A stretch of DNA of 24,407 nt, taken from the IMG/VR virus record IMGVR_UViG_3300042924_003509, positions 1 through 24,407 of that record; one strand, 5' to 3'. Below, one piece after another: positions 8,019-15,105 of the stretch (positions within the stretch are counted from its first letter, which is position 1; each line of letters opens with the position of its first letter). The notes under the pieces were generated by a model that did no database searches, was not told where the DNA came from, and saw nothing but the letters and a program-made list of their open reading frames with translations. The DNA comes from a virus. A program made the translations under genes and the position numbers.

Positions 8019-9623
8019 TTACCTCCATCTGGGCCGACGGGCCTTGCCCTGTCGGTCTAGTTTTTCCATGAATTTCTGTACGCGGCCTTCGGCCCCTGCG
8101 GCGTATTGCTTGCGTTCCTTGCGTCCCAGTTCGTACGGCCTGCACCCTAGCAGATACCGTAAAGCGTCAACGGCGTGGTCTTCGTCGCGGCTATCTAGGT
8201 CTTCTGGGTTGGTTTGGTCGTGGCGCATCAGCGGGATGGTGCGAATCAGGTTTTCGCAGTTGCGGAAGATTTTCAGCTTGACGTCGCCATCTACCGGGTG
8301 GGGCATCAGGTAGCGGCGCATGTTCTGCCAGCCGCCGACGCGCTGGTTCTTTGCTTTCACAACGACGACGCCCTGGTTGTTGTATTGGCTGGCCACGGTG
8401 GTGCCCAGACCGGCGACGTTGGAGAACGTGGACGGGTCAATGACGGTCATGGAAATGCTTTCGGGGCGACCGTTCTCCAGGACGCTCAGTTTCTTGACGA
8501 GGCGCGCCTGTTCGGCAGTCGTCAGGTTCTTTTGGTACGCCTCGCGGTAGATGTACATCGTGTTGTCTGCCGGGTCAAGGGCCCCCCACAGGCAGCAGAA
8601 CGGGTTCGCTGTACCGAAGTCAATACCCCTGAAACGGGTCCATGTTTCGGGGATGGCGAACGGTTCGACAACGTGGCGAGAGCGGTCAAACTCTTGGAAA
8701 TACTGGCCCGTAAAGGTGTCCCAGTCGCCGAGGAGCTTTTGCCGGCGTTCGACCTCGGGGAGCATGGATAGGTGCTTGCGGTAGGTGGGGTCAATGAACG
8801 GGTTGTCAATGACCGTGGACGGGACGAACGCGACAACGAGATGGTTGTCGGGGTCGTGGTCAATTTCGACTGCGGCCAGTTCGCCAAGGTCGTCGGGCAG
8901 CTCCACGCTGCGCACGATGTCGGGGTGCTCAAAGCCGTCGGAAACATCGTAGACGATGGCCTTGTTACCGTAATGGGTGGGTGTAACAAGCATCTGGTAG
9001 AGGAACTGGTGGCCTTTGTCGCCGGGGTTGGTAGCGAACATGACGTGGGTTCGGACGCCCGCTGCGGCCTGTTTGCGGCTGGTACGGAGACGGCCCGAAA
9101 TCATCAGCATCTGGTAGGCCGAGAACTGGGTGGCTTCGTCAAAAGCGATGAAGTCGTACTCGGCCGACATGAACTGGCTGACGTCTTCGTCGCGGGCGCA
9201 GTAGCCGTATTCGATGATCGAGCCGTTCTCGTACCACCAGGCTTTCATGTTATCCACCGAGCGCAGCTGGGCTTTGACTTTGAGCTGGGCGTAACGCACC
9301 TGAGTACGGATGATGAGCGACCGGCGCAGCTCGGGCAGGCTGGTTCGGATCAGCAGGCTGCGGTGGCCGGGGTACATCATCGAGAGTTGGTGGGCGTGGT
9401 AGGTGATGAGTTCCGACTTCCCACCACCTGCCGCGCCCCCATAGAGCAACCAGTCCACCTTTTGCAGGAGGATGTTCGCTCTGCTCTGCCGGTCATTCCC
9501 TACAAGCGACCAGGCAGAGAGGTCTTCTTCTAAAAGTTGAAGGTATTCGTCTTGTTCGGCCGCTGACAGGGCGGCGAATTCTTCGTCGGTGAGGAGCAGC
9601 GACTTGTCAACGGTGACGCTCAT
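8019..9623 (-). CDS. terL: Terminase large subunit (ATPase and nuclease)
   Basis: The 534-aa motor packages phage DNA into the prohead through the portal. The ATPase has a Walker A loop at 62-70 (GGAAGGGKS), a Walker B at 158-163 (FIAFDE) and a coupling motif MFATNPG near 195-201. The C-terminal nuclease of RNase H fold shows FRGIDFG (Asp335), MTVIDPS (Asp396) and EDHAVDALRYLLG (Asp482 and Asp486). Length and domain order are normal for TerL. The ATG overlaps the stop of the probable small-subunit gene by 4 bases and the zinc-ribbon gene follows, an ordinary packaging operon. Confidence 0.95.
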   Translation of the reverse strand: MSVTVDKSLLLTDEEFAALSAAEQDEYLQLLEEDLSAWSLVGNDRQSRANILLQKVDWLLYGGAAGGGKSELITYHAHQLSMMYPGHRSLLIRTSLPELRRSLIIRTQVRYAQLKVKAQLRSVDNMKAWWYENGSIIEYGYCARDEDVSQFMSAEYDFIAFDEATQFSAYQMLMISGRLRTSRKQAAAGVRTHVMFATNPGDKGHQFLYQMLVTPTHYGNKAIVYDVSDGFEHPDIVRSVELPDDLGELAAVEIDHDPDNHLVVAFVPSTVIDNPFIDPTYRKHLSMLPEVERRQKLLGDWDTFTGQYFQEFDRSRHVVEPFAIPETWTRFRGIDFGTANPFCCLWGALDPADNTMYIYREAYQKNLTTAEQARLVKKLSVLENGRPESISMTVIDPSTFSNVAGLGTTVASQYNNQGVVVVKAKNQRVGGWQNMRRYLMPHPVDGDVKLKIFRNCENLIRTIPLMRHDQTNPEDLDSRDEDHAVDALRYLLGCRPYELGRKERKQYAAGAEGRVQKFMEKLDRQGKARRPRWR

Positions 9624-12436: not shown

Positions 12437-12548
12437 GGTCCACCAGCTTTGCGTAGTGGGCCCAGACGTCCACGGTCATGTCGTCTTTTTCGGTTTCTGC
12501 GGCCGCGACGCGTGCGCGCAGGTGGTCAAGTAGGGTTTGTCCATCCAT
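12429..12548 (-). CDS. Very small protein (39 aa), unknown
   Basis: The frame reads MDGQTLLDHLRARVAAAETEKDDMTVDVWAHYAKLVDHD. It overlaps the exonuclease start by 8 bases and starts 13 bases after the preceding gene's stop, filling an otherwise empty slot in a compact operon. The composition is helical and charged with no motif. The ribosome-binding site is weak (CAAGGC). Longer in-frame sequence upstream lacks a better start. It could equally be a leader for the exonuclease. Confidence 0.5.
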   Translation of the reverse strand: MDGQTLLDHLRARVAAAETEKDDMTVDVWAHYAKLVDHD

Positions 12549-12561
12549 GCCTTGTATGGTA

Positions 12562-12864
12562 TCAGGCACGGTGTTGGGTTGCAAGTTTTTCTTCCCACTC
12601 GGCCGAGAACGCATCGATCACCTCCGGGTGGTTGTTCCGTACCCAGGTGAGCGCTGATTGGCGCATGAAGTTGTTGCGGGACGCAGCTCGACGCGAAGCG
12701 TCACGGCCTCGATCGCTCGCCCTGTAGGTTGCGGTGTAGTCCCGTTGTGCTTGGCAGCAGTCGCTGCACCGGCAACGCTTCGTGATGTACCCGTGGAGGG
12801 TGCCGTGGTAGTCGCCGGACGCACGGCGGGGTTTGGGCTCTTGGGCAACATGATCGGTCTGCAT
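12562..12864 (-). CDS. Cys/His zinc-site protein of the HGT...CRC..C type
   Basis: The 100-aa product contains HGTLHGYITKRCRCSDCCQAQRDYTATYRASDRGRD (residues 20-54), a pattern I recognise from small actinobacterial and actinophage proteins. Cys31, Cys33, Cys36 and Cys37 with His20/His24 probably bind zinc, followed by an Arg-rich helix. The C-terminal half is helical (MRQSALTWVRNNHPEVIDAFSAEWEEKL). I chose the ATG at 12864 because AAGG lies 2-5 bases upstream and a TATCGT -10 box precedes it; the longer frame runs through the promoter region. It is the first gene of the 12.9-10.1 kb operon and is divergent from 12938. Probably DNA-binding; function unknown. Confidence 0.7.
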   Translation of the reverse strand: MQTDHVAQEPKPRRASGDYHGTLHGYITKRCRCSDCCQAQRDYTATYRASDRGRDASRRAASRNNFMRQSALTWVRNNHPEVIDAFSAEWEEKLATQHRA

Positions 12865-12872
12865 AGCCTTGG

Positions 12873-12878
12873 ACGATA
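12873..12878 (-). promoter_or_regulatory. -10 box of the leftward operon (12.9 to 10 kb)
   Basis: The minus strand reads TATCGT eight bases before the ATG at 12864, matching the actinobacterial TANNNT -10. It lies within GTGGTATCGTCC, which recurs with one change (GTGGTATCTTCC) upstream of the 17829 gene. No good -35 is seen at 16-18 bp. The position implies a very short leader. Confidence 0.45.
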
Positions 12879-12902
12879 CCACCAGACTTTTGTGGGCGCT
12901 AC

Positions 12903-12931
12903 AAGACACTGGGAAAGAAATGTGTTATCCT
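12903..12931 (+). promoter_or_regulatory. Promoter of the divergent 54-aa gene (leaderless type)
   Basis: AAGACA (12903-12908, 4/6 to TTGACA with GACA kept) is followed after 17 bp by TATCCT (12926-12931). The start codon is six bases further on, so the expected transcription start falls on the ATG itself. No Shine-Dalgarno sequence is present. Confidence 0.55.
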
Positions 12932-12937
12932 CAAAGC

Positions 12938-13102
12938 ATGGGTAGAAAGCTCGGAACATCAGGACGGGTCGTCAAACGACGCGATCTGAAACCCAAGCGC
13001 GCCCAAAGCGACGCACAACTCCTCGCCTCCGCGACCAGAGCAGCAGAAGCCTGGCAAGAAAGGTTGACGAAGGAACGTCGAGCGGCTACAGTGCCCCGCT
13101 AA
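12938..13102 (+). CDS. Small basic protein on the opposite strand, probably leaderless
   Basis: The 54-aa product (MGRKLGTSGRVVKRRDLKPKRAQSDAQLLASATRAAEAWQERLTKERRAATVPR) is strongly basic, with a disordered Lys/Arg-rich first half and a helical second half, suggesting binding to nucleic acid or to a polymerase. It is one of only two plus-strand genes in the window and is transcribed divergently from the 12.9-10.1 kb operon. The TATCCT box ends six bases before ATG with no ribosome-binding site, a leaderless arrangement. A short GGGG/CCCC stem-loop followed by TATTTG near 13177-13195 might end the transcript. No family recognised. Confidence 0.6.
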   Translation: MGRKLGTSGRVVKRRDLKPKRAQSDAQLLASATRAAEAWQERLTKERRAATVPR

Positions 13103-13481
13103 CACAACCCAGCGCAAGTTCAAGCGCCAGACCCAGCCCGCAAGTGACGTAGAGCTGGAAGGCGAAAAGTGGCCGGAAACGGGGACTGACCCCTATTTGT
13201 CAAGAAACGCCGCTGTGCAACCAGCGATACGTCAAGGGGTTCGAGAGTTCTATTGAGAATGGGTGTCGGCTAAAACGCTTGGCTACGGCCACCCTTGCAC
13301 TAGCCATGTGCAAAAAGCGTGGGGGGAGCTGAAAACCCCAGGTCGCAACAAACGAGGCAAACAAGCTGCCGCCCTCGCTACGCTCGGTTGCCCTCAAAGC
13401 AGGGACAGACACCCCCCGGACAGCTCGACACCCCACACCCTCAAGAGCAACAGCGACACGCAACGAAACACACCCAAAGCC

Positions 13482-13502
13482 TGTGAACAAACCTGTGTAC
13501 AA
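13482..13502. promoter_or_regulatory. Tandem DnaA-box-like 9-mers
   Basis: TGTGAACAA (13482-13490) and TGTGTACAA (13494-13502) stand 12 bases apart in the same orientation. As reverse complements they are TTGTTCACA and TTGTACACA, each one base from the actinobacterial DnaA box TTGTCCACA. A related TATGCACAA lies at 13570-13578. An AT-rich stretch begins about 34 bases to the right. Confidence 0.45.
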
Positions 13503-13631
13503 CCAACACGCGTGAGCAACCAAAAACGAGCAAGCCCAAAAAATTTTAACCCAAACGTACGGGGACGGGTATGCACAAATACCCACGGGGGTCCCCCCCA
13601 CGGGGCCGGGGGTGGCCGCGCGTGGGCACGG

Positions 13632-13776
13632 GCACGGGCTGCGGCTTCGGTGGTGGGTCTGCGCTGCCGCGTCTGGCCTGCCGCGTCGCCGTCGGCGGGT
13701 GGGTGCGTGGGTACGACGTGGGCACCGGGCTGCGTCGGTCGATCTCCGGCGGGCCAGTGCACCGGGCTGCACCGGG
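13632..13776. repeat. Short direct repeats GCACCGGGCTGC
   Basis: The 12-mer GCACCGGGCTGC occurs exactly at 13722-13733 and 13759-13770, with a one-base-shorter relative GCACGGGCTGC at 13632-13642 and a partial copy GCACCGGG at 13769-13776 overlapping the end of the second. They lie in the gene-free region beside the DnaA-box-like sites. They could be iterons, or chance in very GC-rich DNA. Confidence 0.4.
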
Positions 13777-13966
13777 TCGGGCAGTGGGCTCGGCTGCGGG
13801 ATGTCGGCAAGCGTCGCCGGGCGTGAGACTGAGAACCATTCTTATGCCACACTGTAGGCGCGCCCGCATATCTTCGCCGCCTCGGTGTGCAGTCCCTTTG
13901 GGCGTGTCGCGTCGTGTCGCCTGTCTGCGGGCCTTGTGCGGCCTTGTGGTGGGCGTCGGGACGTGA

Positions 13967-14002
13967 AAAGGCCCCGCGCCGGGGGATCGACGCGGGGCCT
14001 TT
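13967..14002 (-). terminator. Intrinsic terminator after the 14.0-15.1 kb genes
   Basis: A perfect 12-bp inverted repeat has arms AAAGGCCCCGCG (13967-13978) and CGCGGGGCCTTT (13991-14002) with a 12-nt loop. On the minus strand the stem ends in CCTTTTCACG, a short U tract, and it lies 25 bases past the stop of the 14027 gene. It isolates the gene-free region from leftward transcription. Confidence 0.8.
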
Positions 14003-14026
14003 GTGCAGGTGGCTGCGGGCTGCGGG

Positions 14027-14419
14027 TTAGTCGATCGCGACTCCTACGGCGTCGGCCCATGTGCGCACGGCGTCGGTGAGCCCGGTGGCCTGCAGATACG
14101 CCCAGTCACGGGGAAGGACGTCGGCGGGGTCGTAGTCCCCGGTGCCGAGTTGGGCGACCATCGCGAGCAGGTAGCGCGCGATCTCGTGGCACGTCATCGC
14201 GAGATCAGCGGCGAGCGGGTCGCCGGTTCCGGCCTCGACAATGGCGCGCACGTCGTCGGTCATCTCGTCAGCCCACTGCACCCCGGCGGCGTAGTAGTTC
14301 GTCGGGATCGAGTTCAGCGCGCAAACCGGGCAACCTTCGCGGCGGTCGTCGGGCCACTGTGCAGCCCCGTCCCACTGGTGCCCGTAGGTGCAAACGTGAG
14401 GCCAGCGCGCGCCGGTCAT
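14027..14419 (-). CDS. Small protein with a CCHC-type zinc site, unknown
   Basis: The 130-aa product starts MTGARWPHVCTYGHQWDGAAQWPDDRREGCPVCAL. Cys10, His14, Cys30 and Cys33 can form a zinc knuckle in the first 35 residues, and the rest is helical and acidic (ADEMTDDVRAIVEAGTGDPLAADLAMTCHEIARYLLAMVAQLG). The ATG overlaps the ParA-like stop codon by 4 bases, so the two are coupled. It could be the partner of the ParA-like protein, in the place where a ParB would normally be, but it has no ParB features. No family recognised. Confidence 0.68.
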   Translation of the reverse strand: MTGARWPHVCTYGHQWDGAAQWPDDRREGCPVCALNSIPTNYYAAGVQWADEMTDDVRAIVEAGTGDPLAADLAMTCHEIARYLLAMVAQLGTGDYDPADVLPRDWAYLQATGLTDAVRTWADAVGVAID

Positions 14420-15105
14420 CGTGTACCGCCCCGGATGGCGTCGGCGTGCGTGTAAAGCGGCGCACCAGGCGCGAACAGTTCGCCGAGCGTCCCGAACGCT
14501 TCGCGCAGGTCTGCGGGCCCGTCGGCACGTCCGGCGCGGTCAAGCAGCAGCCCCGCGTCAATCAACCGCGCGAGGATGTCCGTCCGGGGGATGGTGAGCG
14601 TCTCGCCGGTGCCGCCGACGATGGTTGCGACGTCGCGCGGCGTAATGGCCCGGTCAGCCTCGGCGAAGGTGACAACGTGGGTGCGGGGACGTGCGCCGCA
14701 TTCGTTCGCGATCGCGCGCACCGTGCGACGCAACGCGACGTAATGCGGGCGCACGACGACGACGGGCACCACGTCGAAACCGACGCGGGCGAGATCCTCG
14801 CAAGTGGGCGCGTGATCGAGATCGAGCACAACCAGCGCGGGCCGGTCGGCCCCGTGGATGCCCGCATACGTCGCGACAACATCCGCGCCGGTGGCGGAAC
14901 CGACAGTGCGCAACGTCAGCCAGTCGGCGGGATCAGTATCCGAGGACGAAACACCGAGCGTTGCGGCGATGTCGTCACTGTCAGAAATGACGACGGTACG
15001 CCCGAAGTCTCCGCGCGCGATGTCGGCGCGGGCAAGTGCGGTGAGCGCAGCGGCGACTGTGCGCCCCTGACCCCCCGCGTAGGACGTGAATCTAACGAGT
15101 TTCAT
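14416..15105 (-). CDS. ParA/MinD-like protein with a degenerate P-loop
   Basis: The 229-aa product resembles SIMIBI-class ParA proteins: an N-terminal strand and loop MKLVRFTSYAGGQGRTVAAAL, VVISDSDDIAATLG (38-51, where ParA has the DxDPQ motif) and ALVVLDLDHAP (90-100, Walker B-like). Both hallmark lysines of the deviant Walker A (KGGxxK[T/S]) are absent: residue 10 is Ala and residue 15 is Arg. ATP hydrolysis is therefore doubtful. Family members act in DNA partition or protein positioning. The ATG has an AAAGGGTCAC ribosome-binding element, a leader hairpin at 15127-15146 and a TACGAT -10. It could be a non-hydrolysing decoy or a divergent GTP/ATP-binding protein. Confidence 0.62.
   Translation of the reverse strand: MKLVRFTSYAGGQGRTVAAALTALARADIARGDFGRTVVISDSDDIAATLGVSSSDTDPADWLTLRTVGSATGADVVATYAGIHGADRPALVVLDLDHAPTCEDLARVGFDVVPVVVVRPHYVALRRTVRAIANECGARPRTHVVTFAEADRAITPRDVATIVGGTGETLTIPRTDILARLIDAGLLLDRAGRADGPADLREAFGTLGELFAPGAPLYTHADAIRGGTR

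Follow-up and report, generated by a model that had tools for sequence, protein, structure and literature searches.

A conserved structured RNA gene beside a putative replication origin in an uncultured actinophage

Gene neighbourhood of the locus

The window, by which we mean the whole stretch of DNA analysed here, is a virus record of 24,407 bases (G000). The genes that could be named lie on the minus strand on both sides of a gap, within which a small open reading frame sits on the plus strand:

Left of the gap, minus strand: genes for tail fibre, major head protein, portal, terminase, WhiB, SSB and exonuclease
8019-9623: the terminase gene, 3.5 kb away from the RNA described below
12938-13102, plus strand: open reading frame for a basic protein of 54 amino acids, upstream of the RNA, with the promoter of the RNA within its last codons
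Right of the gap, minus strand: genes for Gp88-like, ferredoxin-like, RecT-like and lysozyme-like proteins

The 54-residue protein starts MGRKLGTSGR; of 94 upstream segments, 12 (counting the window's) encode a relative. On the left side, the conserved product is that of the frame 12562-12909, as judged by eye from a comparison with positions 2551-2886 of a related record (L002); the minus-strand frame 12618-12959 was dropped as left neighbour, since searches with its product gave neither a family match nor relatives. Searches of viral contigs with the products of 12618-12959 and of 14416-15105 gave no useful relatives, and the latter protein had no convincing match in database searches. It and the protein of L002:301-1017 (plus strand; the window's frame is on the minus strand) share a glycine-rich start, SYAGGQGRT and SHTGGQGRT, respectively, which recalls a ParA-type Walker motif. 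The GC content of the window climbs from about 0.58 to 0.69 near position 13,500; a chimeric contig was ruled out as the source of this jump, given that L002 and the window remain colinear through this transition. Whole-window megablast against GenBank phages returned no match.

We examined 26 large records, of which seven were selected for their head protein, 17 for the RNA motif and two for a conserved DNA block. WhiB, an actinophage marker (PMC6802176), is present in 25 of the 26, and we took these phages as actinophages for this reason.

A structured RNA gene supported by covariation

Comparison of the gap with related records points to a conserved RNA encoded on the plus strand, with the following parts:

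13064-13092, plus strand: sigma-70-like promoter TTGACG-17-TACAGT, directly before the RNA
13107-13333, plus strand: conserved core of the RNA, which scores 171 bits with covariance model R1 (built from 24 sequences that include the window's own)
13125-13127 / 13162-13164, plus strand: outer helix CGC/GCG, double changes in two of three pairs
13133-13137 / 13154-13158, plus strand: stem CCAGC/GCTGG, double changes in all five of its five pairs
13145-13148 / 13199-13202, plus strand: pseudoknot TGAC/GTCA, only 4 bp in the window itself
13173-13182, plus strand: hairpin CCG-GAAA-CGG with a GNRA-type loop, 100% of cells paired, double change in one of three pairs
13189-13193 / 13236-13240, plus strand: helix 4, ACCCC/GGGGT, the weakest helix, with 80.8% of cells paired
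13207-13209 / 13230-13232, plus strand: helix 5, ACG/CGT, enclosed by helix 4
13261-13294, plus strand: most conserved hairpin, GGTGTCGGCTAAAA..TTGGCTACGGCCACC
13290-13317, plus strand: single covarying pair C13290-G13317, which spans a variable hairpin (13295-13313)
13319-13326, plus strand: GTG and then a G-run, which closes the fold on its 3' side

The promoter is the sole promoter-like site on either strand in 12850-14030, where shuffled sequences yield 0.1 on average; a simple consensus scan of the same interval found no minus-strand promoter-like site for an antisense RNA, and no plus-strand terminator-like site was listed there. Promoter counts across the class (sense 71 of 94, antisense 42 of 94, control 32 of 85) were not clean and are not used as evidence. 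The RNA is probably transcribed, with a true 5' end that would lie near 13098, and its conserved tail reaches approximately position 13390.

Support for the fold comes from an alignment of 24 window-type sequences, retained from 29 after removal of near-duplicates. In this alignment 20 of the 35 named pairs have double changes and 92.8% of cells are paired, a value that none of 500 shuffles equalled; controls in which the structure was slid along the alignment had 32.8-41.9% paired, a comparison that favours the structure because it was read off that same alignment. RNAalifold alone recovers most of the named helices. It pairs the conserved G-run (13321-13325), however, with the CCCC strand at 13190-13194, whose partner is otherwise GGGG at 13236-13239, and so outlines a possible switch. 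Model R1 finds more distant members at E-values of 1e-18 to 3e-7 and matches all 95 of the 95 loci supplied, every one of them preselected for the motif. When the 95 members were fitted to R1, 91.4% of cells were paired, again with 0 of 500 shuffles as good on that measure, and 26 of the 35 pairs showed double changes; the GNRA-type hairpin at 13173-13182 is 98.9% paired in the family alignment. The most conserved hairpin, at 13261-13294, says little for or against structure because most of its pairs barely vary.

Two tertiary features were assessed separately. The pseudoknot joins the loop of the second helix to the strand preceding ACG/CGT, and the longest complementary stretch averaged 6.33 when each sequence was compared with itself and 4.75 when partners were permuted, with 0 of 2000 permutations as high. 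A tertiary pair between the bulged base of ACGGC[X]ACC and AA[Y]NGTG obeys Watson-Crick rules in 92 of the 97 instances that were parsed (98 were given, and the parser missed one), against a mean of 41.2 and a maximum of 56 in shuffles. The G-run comprises five to seven G in all 97 parsed instances, for which the parsing pattern itself demanded at least three. The window RNA taken alone folds no better than shuffled sequences (z -0.44), and the case therefore rests on covariation. On these sequence comparisons, a structured RNA gene at this locus is close to certain. It is the main feature of the region and was overlooked in an earlier note on this DNA, which had described the gap as gene-free; this gene and the 54-residue open reading frame contradict that description.

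Distribution of the RNA and comparison with known RNAs

A pattern search of IMG/VR with the first motif found the RNA core in at least 119 stretches; the instances number 119 by one duplicate key, 114 by a stricter key and 98 with near-duplicates removed. The gap was also compared by blastn with 32 of 81 records picked by their SSB or head protein, and 19 of the 32 gave matches at E-values up to 1. The stronger matches fell in two separate noncoding blocks, the motif GGTGTCGGCTAAAA..GTGGGGGGAGC and then CAAACGTACGGG with a GGGGTCCCC repeat, in an order that is constant where the blocks lie close together. A covariance search of the 26 large records gave one clear RNA match in 23, one weak match (14.7 bits) in G006 and none in G003 and G007; no record among the 26 carries two copies. 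Among 46 whole contigs (within L115-L192), 15 end within 500 nt 3' of the RNA, where 3.3 would be expected, which perhaps reflects assembly trouble or physical ends.

At many of these loci the RNA adjoins a terminase gene. The representative of the neighbouring terminase cluster matches phrog_38, and the window terminase and a second cluster match phrog_979; both families also have phrog_2 matches, so that we call them different and not unrelated.

Neither the window nor 12 relatives had a match in Rfam 15 at the gathering score, and the gap gave only two matches there, both far below the gathering scores (E-values of 1.7 and 4.3). Nothing similar was found by blastn against 50,697 GenBank phage records (two queries) or 72,556 PLSDB plasmids (one query), and R1 gave no match over 396 Actinomycetota genomes under stricter filters, in a run that had no positive control. 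No paper in the literature searched was seen to describe the RNA or contains the letters of its core. A catalogue of candidate structured RNAs in viruses has reportedly been published, and the RNA may be an unnamed entry in it. The ornate RNAs GOLLD, ROOL and OLE are linked to phages and lakes. Like the RNA described here, they are large structured RNAs of bacteria and phages (PMC12286853); unlike them, our RNA is tied to an origin-like element and had no Rfam match in the window or the 12 relatives scanned.

Conserved DNA downstream of the RNA

The RNA is followed by a series of DNA elements:

13370-13390, plus strand: CGCCCT..CGGTTG element, which runs into the degenerate DnaA-like 9-mer TTGCCCTCA (to 13396)
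13482-13502, minus strand: tandem DnaA-box-like 9-mers, one mismatch each
13538-13543, plus strand: A-tract, then the conserved block CAAACGTACGGG at 13552-13563
13567-13608, after the block: inverted repeats GGGTAT/ATACCC and GGGGGTCCCCC

The earlier note had proposed a replication origin here, and several of the features it listed are present. Two 9-mers, each one mismatch from TTGTCCACA, lie on the minus strand at 13482-13490 (TTGTTCACA) and 13494-13502 (TTGTACACA); the A/T tract is AAAAAATTTTAA at 13538-13549; and the two small palindromes are CACGCGTG at 13507-13514 and GGGTAT/ATACCC at 13567-13584. The terminator-like inverted repeat bounding the gap, at 13967-14002, is 93% complementary, and the switch in strand bias can be seen in the AT skew, which is positive in 12501-13500 and 13001-14000 and slightly negative in 13501-14500. 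The third DnaA-like box could not be confirmed: no further 9-mer with at most one mismatch occurs in 13103-14026, and the best candidate, TTGCCCTCA at 13388-13396, has two. Across the whole window, one-mismatch DnaA boxes show no excess (six found, 4.73 expected), and TTATCCACA occurs twice where 2.13 copies are expected; two boxes within 15 bp of each other inside the gap have a P of about 0.005 by dinucleotide shuffles. The evidence first offered for an origin is weak in itself. What makes an origin plausible is the clusters of DnaA boxes and the T-runs at loci that share the RNA, together with the single copy of the RNA per record and the lack of matches to DNA polymerases A, B, C or DnaB in the 26 large records.

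In these relatives, exact DnaA boxes are concentrated 70-350 nt downstream of the motif, with 10 in 25,454 bp where 0.27 would be expected and nine in 862,258 bp elsewhere, and the looser pattern TTGNNCACA occurs 25 times against 2.63 expected; the corresponding Poisson P values are too small because related loci were counted as independent. The exact boxes are confined to eight of 93 usable loci. The window's two degenerate boxes have no counterpart in G002, its nearest relative over the RNA, and a box with at most one mismatch is absent from eight of the 11 other loci that bear the CAAACGTACGGG block. The CGCCCT..CGGTTG element was found at 37 of 93 loci and in none of 1864 control windows. 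The CAAACGTACGGG block accompanies 12 of 114 RNA instances, including the window, and an A-tract of at least five bases is present in 11 of these 12. A longer exact pattern for the block matched L002 only, and a block scan of the genome contigs gave three matches, two of them in genomes without an RNA match. Farther downstream, where GC-rich DNA separates the block from the right-hand genes, a motif ACAGTGTG, possibly an operator, appears by eye to be conserved at window 13841-13860, L002 about 1758-1771 and L088 about 1385-1400.

At 40 of 98 loci a run of at least six T lies downstream of the RNA, and its median distance from the core is 185 nt. An intrinsic terminator was rejected as their cause for most loci, since the 40 nt before the T-run are on average no more stable than random 40-mers, and for the same reason the T-run suits a strand-opening element better than a terminator; the exceptions are L209, L242 and L196, where a strong hairpin precedes the T-run. 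Averaged over loci, the sense strand is rich in C 100-300 nt downstream (GC skew of -0.18 and -0.15), with GGGG in 46 of 83 loci and CCCC in 72, and an R-loop is disfavoured because of this composition.

Cumulative GC skew, which the earlier note had put forward as a check, gave a divided result. The raw minimum falls no more than 600 nt from the RNA, and so favours an origin there, in five of 15 genomes (G033, G034, G038, G039 and G043) and elsewhere in the other 10, in a sample in which nine of the 15 genomes lack an end overlap, so that their ends are uncertain. The 10 include all five of the tested genomes that bear the CAAACGTACGGG block (G002, G010, G017, G019 and G048), and in these the check speaks against an origin at the RNA.

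At two loci a different sequence takes the place of the RNA. R1 matches neither L002 nor G003, and in both another conserved sequence (type B), perhaps a second and apparently unrelated RNA, occupies its position. It comes with TTGACG as a promoter-like site, with a G-run and DnaA boxes that are exact or nearly so, and with the CAAACGTACGGG block known from the window. This noncoding type B sequence was located at L002:1990-2620 (minus strand) and L090:700-1600, with a promoter-like site, a G7 run and exact DnaA boxes; a pattern search for type B found only its two source records.

Replication proteins of the related phages

Searches for PolA, PolB, the PolIII alpha subunit and DnaB_C gave no match in the 26 records, with the named control genomes positive, and none of the larger G019 proteins scanned matched a polymerase. 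An AAA ATPase of G019 (13568-14338) has its best match to an ATPase family and weak matches to clamp loaders and DnaC-like loaders, and at six of 114 loci a protein matches the beta clamp of DNA polymerase III below threshold. Given these weak loader-like and beta-clamp-like matches, the phages may have some replication proteins of their own.

Proposed role and alternative explanations

A place for the RNA at a replication origin is the best-supported role, one that we consider somewhat more probable than all others together. The gap would then be a host-dependent origin of an uncultured actinophage, centred on a dedicated structured noncoding RNA. The RNA would be transcribed from its own promoter (13064-13092), fold into a conserved, multi-helix, pseudoknotted domain that closes with the G-run, and be transcribed in the direction of the downstream element of DnaA-like boxes, A-tract and CAAACGTACGGG block (13370-13600), the putative origin proper. 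Through an action in initiation or priming, the transcript would most likely help to open the downstream origin and might possibly prime it, as RNA II does in ColE1; in this way a phage that encodes neither a polymerase nor a DnaB helicase might recruit the replication proteins of the host.

Like the phage RNA, RNA II of ColE1 has a G-run, and it has an A-tract. In the ColE1 scheme (PMC5043065), a pre-primer transcript starts at a promoter that lies several hundred bp before the origin and runs into the origin. The window has a comparable layout, in which a promoter-like site precedes the putative origin by a few hundred bp and a structured noncoding RNA would be transcribed toward it, and no polymerase or DnaB was found in the 26 phage records. 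Unlike RNA II, however, the RNA is found in actinophages, has no known sequence similarity to it and is accompanied by no visible promoter for an antisense RNA I; the DnaA boxes and T-runs of relatives and the C-rich downstream sense strand also differ from ColE1. We regard the resemblance as one of layout only and do not class the RNA as a member of that system, and priming is putative. That priming proceeds in the manner of RNA II is a tentative hypothesis, which we rate as somewhat doubtful.

In an alternative scenario, replication would start at a conventional DnaA-dependent origin downstream, and the RNA would not prime but would act as a separate regulator or only contribute transcriptional activation. 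This is rather unlikely in our assessment, although it accounts for the DnaA boxes and T-runs downstream of the RNA and accords with a C-rich sense strand that disfavours an R-loop. A subset of the relatives does resemble bacterial DnaA-dependent origins in having DnaA boxes beside a T-rich tract; those origins differ in that here a conserved RNA gene lies directly upstream and the window's boxes are degenerate. The G-run is conserved, however, and type B keeps the promoter-like site, the G-run and the downstream block, which suggests that the RNA itself is used.

A trans-acting regulatory RNA at a transcription junction, directed for example at host RNA polymerase or at early/late switching, with the enrichment of DnaA boxes coincidental to a shared intergenic region, appears improbable. 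At many loci the RNA does lie between a divergent terminase gene and small genes on its own strand, and the distribution is host-linked (again, WhiB in 25 of 26 records); yet the five block-bearing genomes keep the RNA though nearly all of their long frames are on the opposite strand, and conserved DNA elements follow it. Least probable, and in our view very improbable, is a packaging RNA akin to the phi29 pRNA and made beside the terminase gene, for although the RNA is likewise a structured phage RNA often adjoining a terminase gene (divergent and beside it in 69 of the 84 loci whose 5' flank is 2.2 kb or longer), we rank this reading low because each RNA subtype is found with each terminase cluster (15 RNAs of the window type and 74 others with the phrog_38-like cluster, 10 and three with the phrog_979-like one), and, further against it, the window terminase is 3.5 kb from the RNA and no match at the gathering score was found in Rfam, which includes a pRNA family.

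Returning to a role at the origin, we can extend the proposal, with less confidence than we attach to that role itself, to a widespread group of actinophages in which the RNA would be transcribed into the origin, prime or open it by means of host enzymes and replace an initiator protein, and in which the type B RNA would substitute for it in some members. The analysis contributes a covariation-supported structured RNA, present in more than a hundred viral stretches and without a match in Rfam. Its position suggests a concrete, testable way in which small actinophages that lack a recognisable polymerase or DnaB may begin to replicate; should the RNA prime or open the origin, these phages would have their own version of the ColE1 strategy, built on an independent RNA.
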